Shown one piece after another: positions 32,188-62,520 of a stretch of DNA of 64,000 nucleotides. The notes under the pieces were generated by a model that worked only from the letters and a program-made list of their open reading frames with translations, did no database searches and had not been told where the DNA came from. Source of the stretch: Streptomyces sp. 840.1 (GTDB taxonomy: Bacteria; Actinomycetota; Actinomycetes; Streptomycetales; Streptomycetaceae); contig NZ_RJUU01000001.1 in NCBI RefSeq assembly GCF_003751445.1, positions 3,539,001-3,603,000 on the forward strand, given 5' to 3'. Positions within the stretch are counted from its first letter, which is position 1, and each line of letters starts with the position of its first letter. The position numbers and the translations under genes were made by a program.

Positions 32188-32193
32188 TTTGCG

Positions 32194-32267
32194 TGCGCCG
32201 CCAGGGACTCGAACCCCGGACCCGCTGATTAAGAGTCAGCTGCTCTAACCAACTGAGCTAGCGGCGC
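32194..32267 (-). tRNA. tRNA-Lys(CTT), copy 1
   Basis: On the minus strand: acceptor GCGCCGC / GCGGCGC, D-arm GCTC..GAGC, anticodon loop CTCTTAA with anticodon CTT in a five-base-pair stem, T-loop TTCGAGT, discriminator A. No CCA is encoded. A leader GTCAGCAG directly before the 5' end is shared by all three copies in the window. A TAGAGT -10-like box lies about 20 bases upstream. Confidence 0.96.
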
Positions 32268-40960: not shown

Positions 40961-40966
40961 TGTCTG

Positions 40967-41040
40967 TGCGCCGCCAGGGACTCGAACCCCGGACCCGCTG
41001 ATTAAGAGTCAGCTGCTCTAACCAACTGAGCTAGCGGCGC
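40967..41040 (-). tRNA. tRNA-Lys(CTT), copy 2
   Basis: Identical over all 74 bases to the copy at 32194, with the same GTCAGCAG leader. The upstream sequence contains TATTAT about 15 bases before the leader, a likely -10 box. Confidence 0.96.
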
Positions 41041-55801: not shown

Positions 55802-55809
55802 CCCGTCTG

Positions 55810-55883
55810 TGCGCCGCCAGGGACTCGAACCCCGGACCCGCTGATTAAGAGTCAGCTGCTCTAACCAACTGAGCTAGCGGCGC
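55810..55883 (-). tRNA. tRNA-Lys(CTT), copy 3
   Basis: Identical to the copies at 32194 and 40967. Its 5' end overlaps the last ten bases of the coding region at 55874, whose stop codon TAG is formed by tRNA positions 8-10. Confidence 0.96.
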
Positions 55884-56793: not shown

Positions 56794-57135
56794 TCAGGGC
56801 CTGGGGTCGTTCAGCAGGCTCCTGCCGAACTCGACCATCTTCGTCGCGTAGTCCTCGGTCCACTCCGCCCGCTGGGCGATCTCCGCCGTGGTGAGCCGGT
56901 CGAACCGGCGCGGGTCGGCCAGCTGGGCGGCCGCGACCGCCTGGAACTCGACGGCCCGATCGGTCGCGGCGCGGAACGCCAGGGCCAGCTCGGTGGAACG
57001 GCTCAGCAGCTCCTTCGGATCCTCCATCGACTCCAGGTCGAAGAAGTGCTCCGGATCGGCGACCGACGCCGACGGCTCGAAGAGCAGGGGTGCGGGGCGC
57101 AGCCGCTGCCGCTCGTTCCGCTCGGGTTGTGCCAT
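56794..57135 (-). CDS. Conserved actinobacterial protein of unknown function
   Basis: A 113-residue, acidic, mostly helical protein without membrane segments (LFEPSASVADPEHFFDLESMED, then ALAFRAATDRAVEFQAVAAAQL and a C-terminal region that may form a small helical domain). GGAGGAGG lies before ATG 57135. It is the last gene of a minus-strand run after the helicase, separated by 104 bp that hold a hairpin. Confidence 0.65.
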   Translation of the reverse strand: MAQPERNERQRLRPAPLLFEPSASVADPEHFFDLESMEDPKELLSRSTELALAFRAATDRAVEFQAVAAAQLADPRRFDRLTTAEIAQRAEWTEDYATKMVEFGRSLLNDPRP

Positions 57136-57239: not shown

Positions 57240-58571
57240 TCAACGCCCCCAGCGCACGCGGTGTTCCGCCAGGTGCGCCAGCACCCGGTGGTTCGCCTCC
57301 CAGCCGTCCGGGAACTTCACCGTGACGCCCAGCTGGACCGGCTCCGTCGACGGGTGCTCGTCGAGGAGCTCCGCGACGCCCGCGCGGCACACCACGATGC
57401 AGGCGTGCCGGTGGCGCGAGGCCAGTACGCACAGCCGGCCCGTCTCCAGGTGGAACGCGGTGGCGTCCGGCCGGCCGGACAGCGGGTGCAGGACCACCGT
57501 CACGTCGAACTCGCGGCCCTGGAGCCGGTTCGCGGTGTCCACCGCCACGCCCGTCACCCCCAGCTCCGCGAGCGCCGCCCGCACCGCCGCCGCCTGGTCG
57601 CGGTGGGCCGTGCCGACCGCGACCCGGTCCGCCGTCACCGGGGCCGGGTCGGGGGAGCGCTCGCTGGTGGCCGCGCCGCCCCGGTCCAGCAGCCGGCGCA
57701 CCACCGTGGCCACCGCCCGGACCGCCTCGGGGTCCGTGCGCGGGGTGTGCCGGGCCGGCAGTTCCAACAGCCCCCAGCCGGACTCCGCCGCCTCGTCCAG
57801 CACCCGGTCCGCCGCCGAACCGTCGGACCCGACACCGAACGACAGCAGCCGGTCCCCGTGGTCCGTACCGCTGCGGAACGGGGTGTACGGGTAGAACGCG
57901 TCCGACACCAGCTGCGCGGCCGACGCGGGCAGCCGCCAGGAGACCGGCAGCCGGCGCTGCGGCAGCTCCGGATTGTGCGCCAGCAGGGTGGAGACCGCGC
58001 TCGCGGACGGGTCGTAGCTCAGCCCCGCCCACTGGTCCGCGCCGACGATCGAGAACGGGTCCAGCTGGCCCGGATCGCCCACGAACAGCGCCCGTTCGAA
58101 GAGCCCGGCGACGGCCAGCAGCGCGTCCGAACGCATCTGGTACGCCTCGTCGACGATCGCGTGGCCCCAAGGCTCGACGTTCTTCACATGGGCCCACTTG
58201 GCCGCCGTCGAGATGACGATGTCGAGCCCGGCCAGATCCGCCGCCTTCGCCGACTTGCGGACGTTCTCCAGCCCGTCGAGCACCTTGTCGTACGGGTCGG
58301 AGTCACTGCTGTGCAGCCGGCCGACGGGCAGCCCGGGGTCCTTCTCGGCCAGCCGCACCACCAGGTCGTCCACCTGCGCGTTCGTCTGCGCGACGACCAT
58401 CAGCGGGCGCCCGGCCGCGGCGAGTTCGAGCGCGGCACGCACCACCAGGGTCGACTTGCCCGCGCCCGGCGGGGAGTCCACCACGATGCCGCGCGCGGTG
58501 CCGTTCAGCGTGTCGTCCAGGATCTGGGCGGTCGCCCGGCCCGCCGCCGCCCCCGGGTCCAGGTTGCTCAC
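57240..58571 (-). CDS. Superfamily 1 (UvrD/DNA2-like) helicase
   Basis: A 443-residue ATPase. Motifs: Walker A DSPPGAGKST with Lys39, motif Ia-like VVAQTNAQVDDL, Walker B AIVDEAYQ, motif III FVGDPGQLDP, motif IV-like VSWRLP, motif V NRLQGREFDV and motif VI ASRHRHACIVV. This is the pattern of SF1B (Dna2/NAM7/RecD2) helicases, but the protein is short and has no nuclease domain of its own. GTG 58571 overlaps the TGA of the preceding gene by four bases (GTGA). It sits in one operon with a Fe-S nuclease, the usual partner of Dna2/AddAB-type helicases. Confidence 0.8.
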   Translation of the reverse strand: MSNLDPGAAAGRATAQILDDTLNGTARGIVVDSPPGAGKSTLVVRAALELAAAGRPLMVVAQTNAQVDDLVVRLAEKDPGLPVGRLHSSDSDPYDKVLDGLENVRKSAKAADLAGLDIVISTAAKWAHVKNVEPWGHAIVDEAYQMRSDALLAVAGLFERALFVGDPGQLDPFSIVGADQWAGLSYDPSASAVSTLLAHNPELPQRRLPVSWRLPASAAQLVSDAFYPYTPFRSGTDHGDRLLSFGVGSDGSAADRVLDEAAESGWGLLELPARHTPRTDPEAVRAVATVVRRLLDRGGAATSERSPDPAPVTADRVAVGTAHRDQAAAVRAALAELGVTGVAVDTANRLQGREFDVTVVLHPLSGRPDATAFHLETGRLCVLASRHRHACIVVCRAGVAELLDEHPSTEPVQLGVTVKFPDGWEANHRVLAHLAEHRVRWGR

Positions 58572-60175
58572 AGCACGTCCTCCGGGGTCACGGGGTCGGG
58601 GATTTCCGCAGCCGCGCCGGAGCCCGGCGGGCCGCCGTGGGTCCATGGCGTCTCCTCCGGATCGGGCAGCTTCGGGCCGCCGCGCTGGTCGTGCTCGAAC
58701 AGCGTCCAGGCGATCCGGTCACCCGGCTCCGGCACCGAACCCGGGGCCGGCTCCCTGCTCCGGCCCATCCGGTCGGTGATCCGTAGCACCAGCAGGGGCG
58801 GCTCGCCCGCCTCCACCGGCCCGTACCCGGCGAACTCGGCCGTCTGCGGCTTGCCGTCCAGCGAGCGGTAGACCTTCACACCGTCGGCCAGCTGCGGCTG
58901 CTCGCCCGTGCGGACGGTGACCAGCGGGCGCGGCGAGGGCCGCTTGGACTCGGTGTACGTCATCTCCACCCCCGTCACCTCCCCGAGGAACGCCTCGCCC
59001 GCGAGGCGCCGGCCGGCCAGCACCAGCGGATCGTCCAGCGCCTCCTGGGCCTCCAGCTGCGCCTGGGCGGTCTCGCGGGACGCGAGCTTGCGGGCCGCCG
59101 TCACCGCGTCGTCCCGGCGCGGCTGCGGCGGCTCCCCGGACCGCACCCGGTCGCGGTGACCGGTGAACGACCAGCGGTCACGCGACCAGCGGTCCTCGGT
59201 CCTGGACCCCTCGGGCAGCTCCCGCAGCAGGTCCAGGCCCCGCCACACGGCGTCCCAGGTCGGCCGCAGCACACCCCCCAGCAGCGCCCTGATCTCCCGC
59301 TCGGCCGCCGTCAGCGCGGCGAGCCCGGCATCGGCCGCCAGCCCGTCCTCGGCGGCGGCCAGCGCGGTGCGCGCCCGGTCGTACCGCTCGATAGCGGGGG
59401 CCAGCAGCCGGTTGTCGAAGTCCGGATCGGTGGCCGGCCCGGCGGGCGGGCACAGCAGCTGCCCCGCGCCGTCCCGGGCCAGCTCGGCCCGGAGCGCCGC
59501 CTCCGCCCCGGACCCGTCGGCGGGCGGGTCGACCCAGGCGAGCAGGGCGCCCAGATGCTGGTCCTCCAGGCTGGACTGGCCGCTCGCCCAGTGCCGGTTG
59601 AGCAGATCGGTGCAGGCCAGCAGCAGCGAGGAGCCCGGCACCCGGGCGCGCTCGCCGTAGTGCGTGAGCCAGCGGCCGAGCAGCGGGACACGGGCGGGCG
59701 CCGGATACGGGGTGTCCGGGTCGTCCTCGGCGGTGCGCCGGAACCGCATCGAGCGGCCGAGCAGCCGGATGAACTCGATGCCCGCCCGGCTCGGCACGAT
59801 CAGCTGCGCGGCGTCCGTGCACAGCTCGGTCTCGACCTTGACCTTCTTGCCGGTCGCGGGGTCGCTCTCGCTCCGTTCGGCGGGCTCGACCACATCGGCG
59901 TACGACTCGATGTGCGGCAGGACCGCCTCGGCCAGCTCCGCGAGGAAGGCGAACCGCAGGTCCCGGTCGCGCGGCTGGGCCACGATCAGCAGCCGGGGCG
60001 CGTCCCGGTCGGTGCCGACGAGCGCGCCGAGCGGGGCGCCCGCCTCGCCCGCGGTGGTCAGCGGCACCAGGACCAGCGGCCGGTCGGTGAGGCGGCGGTG
60101 GCGGACCGTGGCCAGCGGCTGCGCGCGGCCGCTCTCCACGGCCTCCAGCCTGGCCAGGGTGGAGATCAGTGGCAC
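58568..60175 (-). CDS. Unknown 535-residue protein in a nuclease-helicase operon
   Basis: I recognise no family. The N-terminus has alternating hydrophobic strands (RPLVLVPLTTAGEAGAPLGALVG, RLLIVAQPRD); the middle (about 150-350) is helical and Ala/Leu-rich; the last 150 residues contain beta-rich stretches (VTVRTGEQPQLADGVKVYRSLDG) like an OB or SH3 barrel. There are no Cys clusters, Walker motifs or catalytic motifs I can name. Gene start GTG 60175 overlaps the nuclease gene, and the stop overlaps the helicase start, so it is very likely a subunit of the same complex. Confidence 0.6.
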   Translation of the reverse strand: MPLISTLARLEAVESGRAQPLATVRHRRLTDRPLVLVPLTTAGEAGAPLGALVGTDRDAPRLLIVAQPRDRDLRFAFLAELAEAVLPHIESYADVVEPAERSESDPATGKKVKVETELCTDAAQLIVPSRAGIEFIRLLGRSMRFRRTAEDDPDTPYPAPARVPLLGRWLTHYGERARVPGSSLLLACTDLLNRHWASGQSSLEDQHLGALLAWVDPPADGSGAEAALRAELARDGAGQLLCPPAGPATDPDFDNRLLAPAIERYDRARTALAAAEDGLAADAGLAALTAAEREIRALLGGVLRPTWDAVWRGLDLLRELPEGSRTEDRWSRDRWSFTGHRDRVRSGEPPQPRRDDAVTAARKLASRETAQAQLEAQEALDDPLVLAGRRLAGEAFLGEVTGVEMTYTESKRPSPRPLVTVRTGEQPQLADGVKVYRSLDGKPQTAEFAGYGPVEAGEPPLLVLRITDRMGRSREPAPGSVPEPGDRIAWTLFEHDQRGGPKLPDPEETPWTHGGPPGSGAAAEIPDPVTPEDVL

Positions 60176-61263
60176 GAGGACCCGCTCTCCAGCGCCTCGG
60201 CGCGCAGCGCGGCGGCGCGGCGCAGCGCCGAGACCGTCGGATCGGCCGGATCGCCCTCCTTGCCGGCCGCCGCGGCCAGCACCGCGCCGACCGTGGTCAG
60301 CCCGCCGAGCTCACCGCGCACGCTGCGCCCCAGCGCCTCCACGGCGCCCTCGGCGCGGGCCCGGCCCCGGCAGTGGAAGGCCAGTTCGCAGGCGGCCAGG
60401 CACTCCGGCGCGTACGCCGCGGCGACCGACTCGACGGCGCGGTCCAGGTCCTCGGGGGAGCGCTCCGGGTCGAAGGTGGTGCCCTCGGGCAGGGCCGCCG
60501 CGATGTCCTCGATCCGGGTGAGCCGGGTCAGCTGGCGGCGGGTGACCGCACGCTGCTTGCGCACGTCCACGACGGACGCGGCGGGCAGGTTGGAGAAGTC
60601 CTTGGGGCAGACCAGCAGCACCCGGTGGCCGACCTCCGCCCCGTCGGTGGCGGCGGCGATCCGCTCCAGCGCCAGCACGTAGACCGCGGACTGACGGGCG
60701 GCCGCGCCGACCTTCGCCGCGTCGGCGGAACCGTCGATCATCGGGAAGGACTTGATCTCGACGACGGTCCAGGTGCCGTCGGGGTGCACCACCACCGCGT
60801 CCGGTTCCAGATAGGCGGGCGAGCCCGCCACCTCCAGGGCCAGCATCGGGTGGTCGAGGAGCGCCCAGCCGCCCGATCGGGTCGCCTCCCGCAGGGCCAG
60901 CGCGGTGCGCGCGGCGCGGCCCTCGGGACCGGCGGCGCTGAGATCGGGCACCGCGACGTCGCGCGGCGGTTCGCCGGGGCCGCCGAGCCGCTCGTGCAGC
61001 AGCCGCATCAGCTCCGTACCGCCGTCGGCCTTGACCTTGGCCTCGAAGGCGTTGCCCCGCATGAAGGCGAACTGGGACTGGCCGAAGGGGGCCGGTGAAC
61101 CGAGCGCGGTGGCCAGGGCCGTCTTGTCGACACCGGCCCCGTCGAGCAGGGCGCGCCGCTTGCAGCCGGGGTTGGCGGCCAGGGCGGCCAGTGCGCGGGC
61201 GTCCAGCGGACGGGGCGCCACGGCCGGGCCCCTCAGCTCAGCGAGCCGCCGCCGCAGTGTCAC
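60166..61263 (-). CDS. RecB/Cas4-like PD-(D/E)XK nuclease with Fe-S cluster motif
   Basis: A 365-residue protein (from GTG 61263; frames remain open to an ATG at 61419, but that would overlap the PAP2 gene by 182 bases). Nuclease core: Glu74, Asp155 (LEPDAVVV), Glu169-Ile-Lys171 (VVEIKSF) and a QxxxY motif (Gln191-Tyr195). Cysteines Cys34, Cys288, Cys292 and Cys298 have the arrangement of the 4Fe-4S cluster in AddB/Cas4/Dna2 nucleases (one Cys before, three after the core). Such enzymes process single-stranded DNA ends. Next in the operon are an unknown protein and an SF1 helicase. Confidence 0.75.
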   Translation of the reverse strand: MTLRRRLAELRGPAVAPRPLDARALAALAANPGCKRRALLDGAGVDKTALATALGSPAPFGQSQFAFMRGNAFEAKVKADGGTELMRLLHERLGGPGEPPRDVAVPDLSAAGPEGRAARTALALREATRSGGWALLDHPMLALEVAGSPAYLEPDAVVVHPDGTWTVVEIKSFPMIDGSADAAKVGAAARQSAVYVLALERIAAATDGAEVGHRVLLVCPKDFSNLPAASVVDVRKQRAVTRRQLTRLTRIEDIAAALPEGTTFDPERSPEDLDRAVESVAAAYAPECLAACELAFHCRGRARAEGAVEALGRSVRGELGGLTTVGAVLAAAAGKEGDPADPTVSALRRAAALRAEALESGSSCH

Positions 61264-62221
61264 CGCCGGCGGCCCGTCCTGCCGCGCTTCCGGCCGGGGC
61301 GGGGACGTCGGCCGGGGCAGGTGGACCTGCCGGTGCTGCGGCATCGGTGGGATCTGCGGAGGAGGTCCGCTGGCCGGGGATTCGCTCACCCGCGGAAGTC
61401 TTGCATCCGGCACTGACATCCGGGGAGTCCGTGGCCGGGCTCACCCGTACGAAGCGGGCCTTGGCCGCGTCGGCGACCTTGTTGGCGAGCCGGGTCACGG
61501 GCCGGGCCAGCAGGGCTCCGAAGCCCATCACGGCGGCGCCGGCCACCGCGTCGAGGAAGTAGTGGTTGGCCGTGCCCATCACCACGAAGACGGTGATCAG
61601 GGGGTACGCGATGCCCGCCGCCCGGACGAGCGGATGCCGCCCGTGGCGCCAGATGAGGATTCCGCACCACAGCGCCCAGCCGACGTGCAGACTCGGCATC
61701 GCCGCGTACTGGTTGGTCATTCCGCCCATGCCGCGCGGGGCGCTCGCCTCGGTGCCCCACCAGCCGTGCGAGCTGTACTGCGCCATCGTGTCCACGAAGC
61801 CGTGTCCCGCGGCCAGCAGCCGGGGCGGGCAGGTCGGCATCAGCGTGAAGCCGATCAGGCCGAGCATGGTGGACGTCATCAGCCAGGTGCGGGCCCTGCG
61901 GTAGGCCTGCGAGTGTCGCCGGAACATCCATATGAGGACGGCGGGGGTTATCAGGTAGTGCAGCGACGCGTACGCGAAGTCGGCGGGTATCCCGATCCAC
62001 GAGTGCGCGGTGAGCAGCCGGTTCAGGGGGTGCTCGAAGTTGATGCGGAGCGTCTGTTCCAGGTTCAGGATGCGCAGCCCGTGGTCCACGGCCGTCGAGA
62101 CGTCGCCGCGTACCAGCAGTCTGCCGCCCGAGTACGCCGCATACACCAGGGCGAGCAGCGGGAGCTCGGTCCACCAGCGGGGCCGGGGGCGCGGCGCGGG
62201 CGCGGTGGTGGCATGCGGCAT
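61238..62221 (-). CDS. PAP2-type membrane phosphatase
   Basis: A 327-residue integral membrane protein with about six helices. The PAP2 phosphatase motifs are recognisable in a diverged form: [10 protein letters not shown] (the PSGH-like block) and the last block [12 protein letters not shown] (SRxxxxxHxxxD type, with the His and Asp). The 77-residue tail is Ala/Pro-rich. PAP2 enzymes dephosphorylate lipid phosphates, e.g. in envelope synthesis. ATG 62221 has GGAG ten bases upstream; ATG 62236/62239 are alternatives. Its end overlaps the nuclease start by 26 bases, so it may head the operon. Confidence 0.8.
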
Positions 62222-62520
62222 CCGGAAGTTCTCCATCATGTGTTCATGCGGCCGACGGCGGACGTTCAACCGTACGGTGCGGTGCGGCCGGGAATCCCCC
62301 AGGGGTGCCCTCGGCGCCCCTCAGCCGCTCTGTTCGGTCTGCGATGAGTGGGACGCCGATGCGGCCCCCCGGGTTGCGTCAGGTGCGTGTGCGAGATGAT
62401 GGAAATCCGGACGTTCCGTTCCCACCGTTCATCCGTAGCGTGTCGGACGGTTGTGTCCCCGTCGATGTCCAAGATCTCAGATCCAGGATCAGAGGTCTCA
62501 GTTTCAGGGAGAGCCGTCAC

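Follow-up and report, generated by a model that had tools for sequence, protein, structure and literature searches.

What do a nuclease, a helicase and a protein of no recognized family do together when their genes overlap, and does their partnership serve repair or defence? The question arises from a trio of genes, here called nuc, mid and hel, in a 64-kb stretch (hereafter the window) of an 8.84-Mb genome whose closest Mid proteins come from Streptomyces. The answer that we favour, with moderate confidence, is one Dna2-like DNA-processing machine split over three genes: a housekeeping enzyme in Streptomyces, coupled to defence where its relatives are mobile. That the proteins form a complex, and what its activity, polarity and biological role would be, we infer. 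By title and abstract, the open-licence literature (most subscription journals and bioRxiv lie outside it) yielded no published description of a nuc-mid-hel set.

The locus

The minus strand carries, in order, pap2, nuc, mid, hel and sml. The pap2 gene (61238..62269) encodes a PAP2_3 protein, overlaps nuc by 26 nt and is the 5' neighbour in most core loci. Each member of the trio has a GTG start: nuc (60166..61263; 365 aa), a Cas4/Exo5/Dna2-type PD-(D/E)XK nuclease with four cluster-type cysteines; mid (58568..60175; 535 aa), predicted to contain an RNase H-like domain followed by a stalk and barrel; and hel (57240..58571; 443 aa), an SF1B Upf1/Dna2-like helicase core. Downstream, at a spacing that differs between loci, sml (56794..57135) encodes a conserved 113-aa protein. 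Longer reading frames, from ATG 61419 (nuc) and ATG 58646 (hel), probably are over-extensions, since the first would overlap pap2 by 182 nt and the second mid by 79 nt.

The initial annotation described three genes overlapping by 4-10 bases, and so they do: nuc and mid share 10 nt (60166..60175), mid and hel 4 nt (58568..58571). Across the fetched loci, several of which are cuts of the same place, the nuc/mid spacing is −4 in 75 and −10 in 29, and the mid/hel spacing −4 in 56 and −11 in 26; rarer values include +7 (10) and +29 (8). The three genes are separate in the window and in the adjacent loci that were read. In L037 an apparent read-through from mid into hel leaves the Mid barrel frame. 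The window contains no SOS box (GAAC-N4-GTTC).

The nuclease

Nuc had been described as RecB/Cas4-like, with four cysteines and a QxxxY motif, and this description stands. The residues are C34 (codon 61162-61164); a predicted catalytic stretch running from E153-P154-D155 to E169-x-K171 (60751..60807); Q191-Y195 (60679-60693); and C288, C292 and C298 (60370..60402), all on the minus strand. In alignment A6 (57 rows, none from clade C, defined below), the four cysteines are invariant, as are E153, P154, K171 and Y195; conservation is at least 90% at D155, E169 and Q191. Judged by sequence, Nuc would bind an Fe-S cluster.

The AlphaFold2 model (pLDDT 93.9) has the Cas4-type nuclease fold: it matches Cas4, Exo5, AddAB and Dna2, mostly DNA nucleases by title, in lists from which the absence of a family excludes none. 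Nuc has no accepted match in Pfam, NCBIfam or PADLOC (for PADLOC, no family at E 1). Against PDB sequences its profile retrieved one match at E 0.098 and two designed proteins, which we ascribe to composition.

A helicase apparently divided between two genes

Hel contains the stretches PPGAGKST (34-41), VDEAYQ (140-145), GDPGQLDP (165-172), DTANRLQGRE (345-354) and SRHRHA (385-390), which we take to be the helicase motifs. The motor matches Pfam AAA_11/AAA_12; of the 13 Pfam families that match up to E 1, none is of the UvrD type. Profile matches to DNA2 (4e-10) and IGHMBP2 (1e-10) both outrank UPF1. Helicases of the Upf1/Dna2-like family are expected to carry a 1B barrel. The annotation of Hel as a complete SF1 helicase therefore needs amending: its two RecA-like domains are present, but the 1B barrel appears, from the models, to be encoded in mid.

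Mid indeed lacks a recognized family, as first noted for this 535-residue protein, in Pfam, NCBIfam and PADLOC (limit E 1). Its sole Pfam match, GPAT_C at 0.019, falls under that family's cut-off, and its profile found nothing among PDB sequences. In the model, residues 31-330 (59186..60085, minus strand) resemble the exonuclease (RNase H-like) domain of family B DNA polymerases; the first strand has no acidic residue, and the domain probably is not catalytic. Residues 355-494 (58694..59113, minus strand) resemble the helical stalk and beta barrel of SETX, Sen1, IGHMBP2 and Dna2, at Z scores that common folds reach too (8.1, for example, for ferredoxin reductase barrels). The proposal of a nuclease-helicase pair with a third subunit survives in part: the Dna2 logic, the SF1 helicase and the co-occurrence of Mid hold, but the model of Mid suggests the helicase's missing stalk and barrel, joined to an RNase H-like domain, more readily than a third subunit in its own right.

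Similar known systems

The closest analogue is eukaryotic DNA2, which shares the RecB/Cas4-type nuclease, the SF1B motor and, as far as the model of Mid predicts, the barrel and stalk. Matched DNA2 chains run from nuclease (32-412) through barrel (456-569) to motor (from about 645). DNA2 is one chain, whereas the window has three genes; the RNase H-like domain is extra, and sequence similarity was found for the motor only.

A second parallel is the TM0106 family (TIGR03491), seen in single-chain proteins of two other actinobacterial genomes (L180 and L179; 1,128 or 1,267 aa). In these, TIGR03491 (7e-50 and 2e-45), RNase_H_2 and AAA_11/AAA_12 matches follow one another, and the same order of nuclease, RNase H-like domain and helicase runs across the three window genes, by predicted fold. 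In hhalign comparisons the TM0106 profile matches Hel at E 9e-12, Nuc at E 0.055 (a probability of about 1%, although QxxxY and the C-terminal cysteines line up in order) and Mid at E 0.16. The sequence relation not being significant, Nuc and Mid were not assigned to TM0106, which was kept as a parallel in domain order. Besides being a single chain, the TM0106 protein differs from Mid, whose first strand lacks the acidic residue. The window genome has no TIGR03491 match, so the trio may be said to work like the TM0106 family, not to belong to it. The family passes its cut-off in 3 of 61 genomes and in none of the 37 Streptomyces among them; four Streptomyces, three of them from these 37, give weak matches of at most 23 bits; in a phylum-wide sample it passes in 48 of 396, including none of 12 Streptomyces. 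One genome, G107, has both TIGR03491 and Mid.

Long, weak helicase matches in other genomes might have been fused relatives, an idea rejected for most after a domain scan of 7 of the 10 fetched loci. L172, L173 and L178 are caspase-helicase proteins, and the proteins of L176 and L177 carry MTES_1575 nuclease domains; among the scanned matches, TM0106 appears in L179 and L180 only.

Other likenesses are partial. Cas4 and ACE1, an Argonaute-associated Cas4 family protein by its PDB title, share the nuclease fold and four cysteines, and clade C of the present set adjoins a PIWI-type gene island; unlike them, Nuc of the window type has constant partners in mid and hel. AddAB, RecBCD and AdnAB likewise pair a RecB-type nuclease fold with a helicase. 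Their motors are of the UvrD-type SF1A class, whereas Hel matches AAA_11/AAA_12. The trio is read as a split Dna2/TM0106-like enzyme because of the fold matches of Nuc together with the RNase H-like, stalk and barrel folds of Mid.

The trio travels together

The initial annotation held that independent occurrence of the three genes would count against a joint machine. The genomes do not show such independence. Among 61 (the window genome and 60 relatives), 42 have all three proteins, 17 have none and two are partial: G001, 79% complete, lacks Hel, and G010 lacks Nuc and has Mid in two pieces. Singly counted, Mid occurs in 44, Nuc in 43 and Hel (above 450 bits) in 43; seven of the 17 genomes without the trio show a helicase match below 60 bits. 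Neither Nuc alone nor Mid alone was found in any of the 61.

Within Streptomyces the set is nearly fixed. Mid is present in 37 of 37 Streptomyces among the 61 genomes and in 281 of 295 sampled more widely (best five candidates scored per genome); 12 of the 14 genomes without it have a completeness of 90% or more and a contamination of 5% or less, which leaves 12 of 288 well-assembled genomes lacking Mid. Across the phylum sample (best three candidates per genome) Mid occurs in 14 of 396, comprising 12 Streptomyces and two others. Carriers among the best 80 of 541 matches include Streptomyces, Micromonospora, Actinomadura, Nocardia, Frankia, Streptosporangium and Nonomuraea, presumably mostly filamentous actinomycetes. 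Pairwise distances over 98 loci are closely correlated: 0.92 for nuc-mid, 0.94 for mid-hel and 0.95 for nuc-hel.

All three genes are close together in 62 of 80 named loci; one locus (L068) starts after nuc, and 17, named Micromonospora or Verrucosispora, have no Hel in the fetched flank. Adding 16 further loci brings these classes to 76, 2 and 18, respectively. With hel outside the nuc/mid flank in 17 of 80 named loci, strict gene coupling is evidently not always needed. The helicase nonetheless is kept: it is present in 20 of 20 Micromonospora-type genomes, of which 17 were picked for the absence of Hel from the flank and three have Hel nearby.

Three clades with different neighbours

A FastTree phylogeny from the joined alignment of 98 loci contains three clades, each with support of 1.0: the Streptomyces core (17 tips, including the window); clade B (23 tips, two of them duplicates, and not the same set as the 23 loci of the neighbour count); and clade C (9 tips).

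Core loci resemble one another. In the seven with long flanks (L003-L021, with 1.5-kb flanks, were left out of the neighbour count), pap2 lies upstream in six (not L169) and sml downstream in all, in L035 after a 4.9-kb insert. Neither these seven nor the window has a marker of c2, SbcCD, Wadjet or pPIWI-RE; in the window, the search for Wadjet used markers of types I and II and the JetC of type III. The window genome as a whole has no match to c2.

A fourth gene, c2 (about 280 aa), joins the trio in 22 of 23 clade B loci; L041 has a 60-aa fragment. No Pfam match to c2 is accepted (the best, Alanine_zipper, is under cut-off), and the L052 copy matches no PADLOC family at 0.001. Divergent from c2 are SbcC and SbcD, near full length or reaching a contig or stretch edge, in 20 of 23 loci (partial in L030 and L170, absent in L041). 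SbcCD is the bacterial Mre11-Rad50. Wadjet (JetABCD) is present in 14 of 23: type I in eight and type II in five, with genes directly after hel, and type III in L046, scored by a JetC about 1.1 kb off on the opposite strand, since JetA and JetB of this type had no marker in the scans. No Wadjet was found in the other nine, although in one of them, L051, a JetC-like gene (25% identity) lies at a distance. JetB and JetC of L039 read in pieces. NCBI annotation of the linear plasmid NZ_CP108489.1 shows ten such genes: an SMC ATPase and SbcD on one strand; and three hypothetical proteins, an AAA ATPase, DUF3375, DUF4194, an ATP-binding protein and JetD on the other. Nineteen clade B loci contain four SOS boxes only, none at the divergent sbcD/c2 promoter, and clade B Mid has no phage relatives at E 1e-5.

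Duplicates were dropped before counting (L154=L038, L156=L044, L158=L047, L028=L045); L159 and L160 are longer cuts of L030 and L029, and close relatives such as L038-L040 were kept. Because the loci were picked partly by similarity to a clade B query (best 80 of 541 kept), the frequency of the clade is best read from the copies above 800 bits in 7 of 295 Streptomyces genomes. Nine further matches among those listed from that sample are seven of clade C and two core (L168, L169).

On the clade B tree, Wadjet state requires at least eight changes; shuffled labels average 11.6, and 0.75% of 2000 shuffles need eight or fewer. The state thus is partly inherited and partly switched. L030 (type II), for instance, is nested among L038-L041 (type I), in a clade with three nodes below 0.8 support.

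Clade C comprises second copies in nine Streptomyces genomes. A pPIWI-RE island, scored by PprPDDEXK, PprRE and PprDinG (the PIWI gene is not among these markers), is divergent from c2-nuc-mid-hel in all nine (by PADLOC for L031, tblastn for the rest). The pPIWI-RE system has been described as a three-gene island, in a main text that does not use the words Cas4 and RecB (PMC3702460). A DinG helicase is part of this neighbour set.

The 65 other named loci, several of which end at a contig edge, carry c2 in 39, always with hel nearby. They show no SbcCD, type I or II Wadjet or pPIWI-RE; there is one JetC3 match (160 aa, 35%), and GmrSD in three: GmrSD_N separates mid from hel in L053 and L055, and in L088 it comes after hel. 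L053 also has an HsdM-like gene downstream of hel. Actinomadura loci have neighbour gene clusters in common, called with a home-made gene caller that put some genes on the wrong strand; cluster c16, for one, resembles c2 read in antisense.

Housekeeping or defence?

The favoured mechanism brings these parts together. Nuc would be the Fe-S PD-(D/E)XK nuclease of the complex, Hel its two RecA-like motor domains, and the C-terminal stalk and barrel of Mid domain 1B of the same helicase, with translational overlap presumably keeping the three in equal amounts. Once loaded on single-stranded DNA at an end or flap, the complex would translocate by means of its motor and would cut the strand or degrade it. 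In Streptomyces the core set most likely would be a housekeeping end- or flap-processing enzyme. Mobile relatives, with c2 added, most likely would process or destroy DNA ends made by a partner system: SbcCD or pPIWI-RE genes stand back to back with the mobile set, and Wadjet often follows. Wadjet and SbcCD, both of which lie outside the window locus, act on DNA, and Wadjet cuts circular DNA.

Because mobile relatives adjoin plasmid- and virus-defence genes, a role at DNA ends probably has been recruited repeatedly into immunity. The main argument that adjacency reflects processing of partner-made ends is that different Wadjet types occupy one and the same position. Since Wadjet occurs in 42% of Actinobacteria genomes (PMC10482375), chance could account for some of the adjacency, but Wadjet was seen in 14 of 23 clade B loci, against at most 1 of 65 other loci.

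A bolder reading is possible, and we hold it tentatively: SbcC-SbcD plus c2-nuc-mid-hel would be a new kind of immune effector, a complete Mre11-Rad50/Dna2-style machine for processing ends. It would serve several DNA-cutting systems in turn and complete the destruction of the plasmid or phage DNA that they cut, and in Streptomyces it would have been domesticated as a core enzyme of genome maintenance. Its partners would be Wadjet types I, II and III and, in a sister clade whose nuclease has lost its catalytic residues, pPIWI-RE.

Could the window trio, nearly fixed as it is in Streptomyces, be an active system against phages or plasmids in its own right? This is unlikely, even though relatives keep company with SbcCD/Wadjet, pPIWI-RE genes, GmrSD and once HsdM. 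Presence of Mid in 281 of 295 Streptomyces genomes, one monophyletic core clade with similar neighbours, the lack of c2 in the window genome, and the lack of partner markers in the window and in all seven long-flank core loci argue against it. The prediction of a repair or defence machine divides: defence islands do hold relatives, but a defence role for the window copy does not fit a nearly fixed clade and a window free of defence-system markers. Near-fixation, membership in a single clade, absence of c2 and absence of those markers make housekeeping more likely for this copy.

That the trio is a plain repair enzyme, hitch-hiking in defence islands with no functional link, is quite unlikely. 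Its core status in Streptomyces, its retention in 17 genomes with hel away from nuc and mid, and the neighbour clusters common to Actinomadura loci would suit such an enzyme. Chance company, however, poorly explains why SbcCD diverges from c2 in 20 of 23 loci of clade B, nor does it account well for three types of Wadjet next to hel, changes of Wadjet state at that position, and pPIWI-RE markers in all nine clade C loci.

Action on RNA or R-loops in the manner of Upf1, Sen1 and senataxin, meeting pPIWI-RE on RNA-DNA hybrids, is very improbable. Barrel and motor do resemble SETX, Sen1 and UPF1, and the pPIWI-RE neighbour DinG is a helicase; yet Nuc matches mainly DNA nucleases by title, IGHMBP2 and DNA2 outrank UPF1, and the SbcCD and Wadjet partners are DNA enzymes. 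Scarcely credible, despite the 17 of 80 named loci with hel apart, are three merely co-regulated enzymes working separately, given overlapping genes in most loci, neither Nuc nor Mid alone in any of 61 genomes, and barrel and motor predicted on separate chains.

What the genes offer

The fate of DNA ends cut by Wadjet is a natural next question, and a set that sits beside three Wadjet types supplies named candidate genes. The trio also offers a bacterial Dna2-like enzyme in separable parts, and the analysis suggests structure and role for Nuc, Mid and c2, families with no accepted match in Pfam or PADLOC.

Clade C, moreover, provides a natural experiment on a nuclease fold without cutting. Predicted catalytic residues of Nuc are lost in all nine loci, and the C-terminal cysteines are kept; seven have LIR for EIK, and L164 and L166 have PQ for PD together with EIR for EIK. 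Altered Nuc occurs also outside this clade, in L084 (EPA) and L095 (EPG, TIK), both without the catalytic D.

The 3' end of hel, the SF1 helicase gene that overlaps the genes for the Cas4/Dna2-type nuclease (nuc) and the middle protein (mid), appears (57240-57330 in the window) to be an attachment site of serine-recombinase elements. Related loci show an insert at L035 (L035:8803-13673), which holds a 577-aa frame that, judged by eye, reads like a large serine recombinase; alternative helicase C termini, one at L035 and another at L016; and a second copy of approximately the last 20 hel codons, found downstream of hel in four loci (L008, L010, L011, and L015).

Mobile relatives carry a fourth gene, c2, in the order c2-nuc-mid-hel. 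Its conserved product of about 280 aa (for example L053:6005-6877; alignment A5) had no accepted Pfam match, and combines the core LRRDEERS...RPYYLC with an N terminus that appears, by eye, to be coiled-coil-like. Among the 65 named loci outside the core clade, clade B, and clade C, c2 occurs only where hel is nearby.

Clade B cassettes, which are mobile and encode c2 and SbcCD, often with Wadjet, sit close to replicon ends in three loci. At L155 (G525:C1), the contig, 8.27 Mb long, ends at most 10 kb away from the cassette; the L171 cassette occupies the stretch 6-22 kb inward from one end of the linear plasmid NZ_CP108489.1; and at L170 the plasmid record NZ_CP027023.1, although declared circular, ends at most 14 kb away. 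Towards the ends of Streptomyces chromosomes, Wadjet and Lamassu are reported to be enriched (PMC10482375).

Clade C, the second copies in nine Streptomyces genomes, lies beside pPIWI-RE genes. It also adjoins (L161:1037-3895, L031:10235-13411) a methylase-like protein, so judged by eye, and a large SNF2/HKD helicase (PADLOC C3a139 match, 2e-107, in L031). This suggests that the pPIWI-RE genes are part of a larger island.

Elsewhere, an EACC1-associated caspase domain is fused to an Upf1-like helicase (L172:1192-4935, L173:1535-5233, and L178:1666-6099) in one genome of the genus Streptomyces and two of the same order. The 64 kb window itself encodes tRNA-Lys (CTT) three times, each on the - strand (32193-32267, 40966-41040, and 55809-55883).
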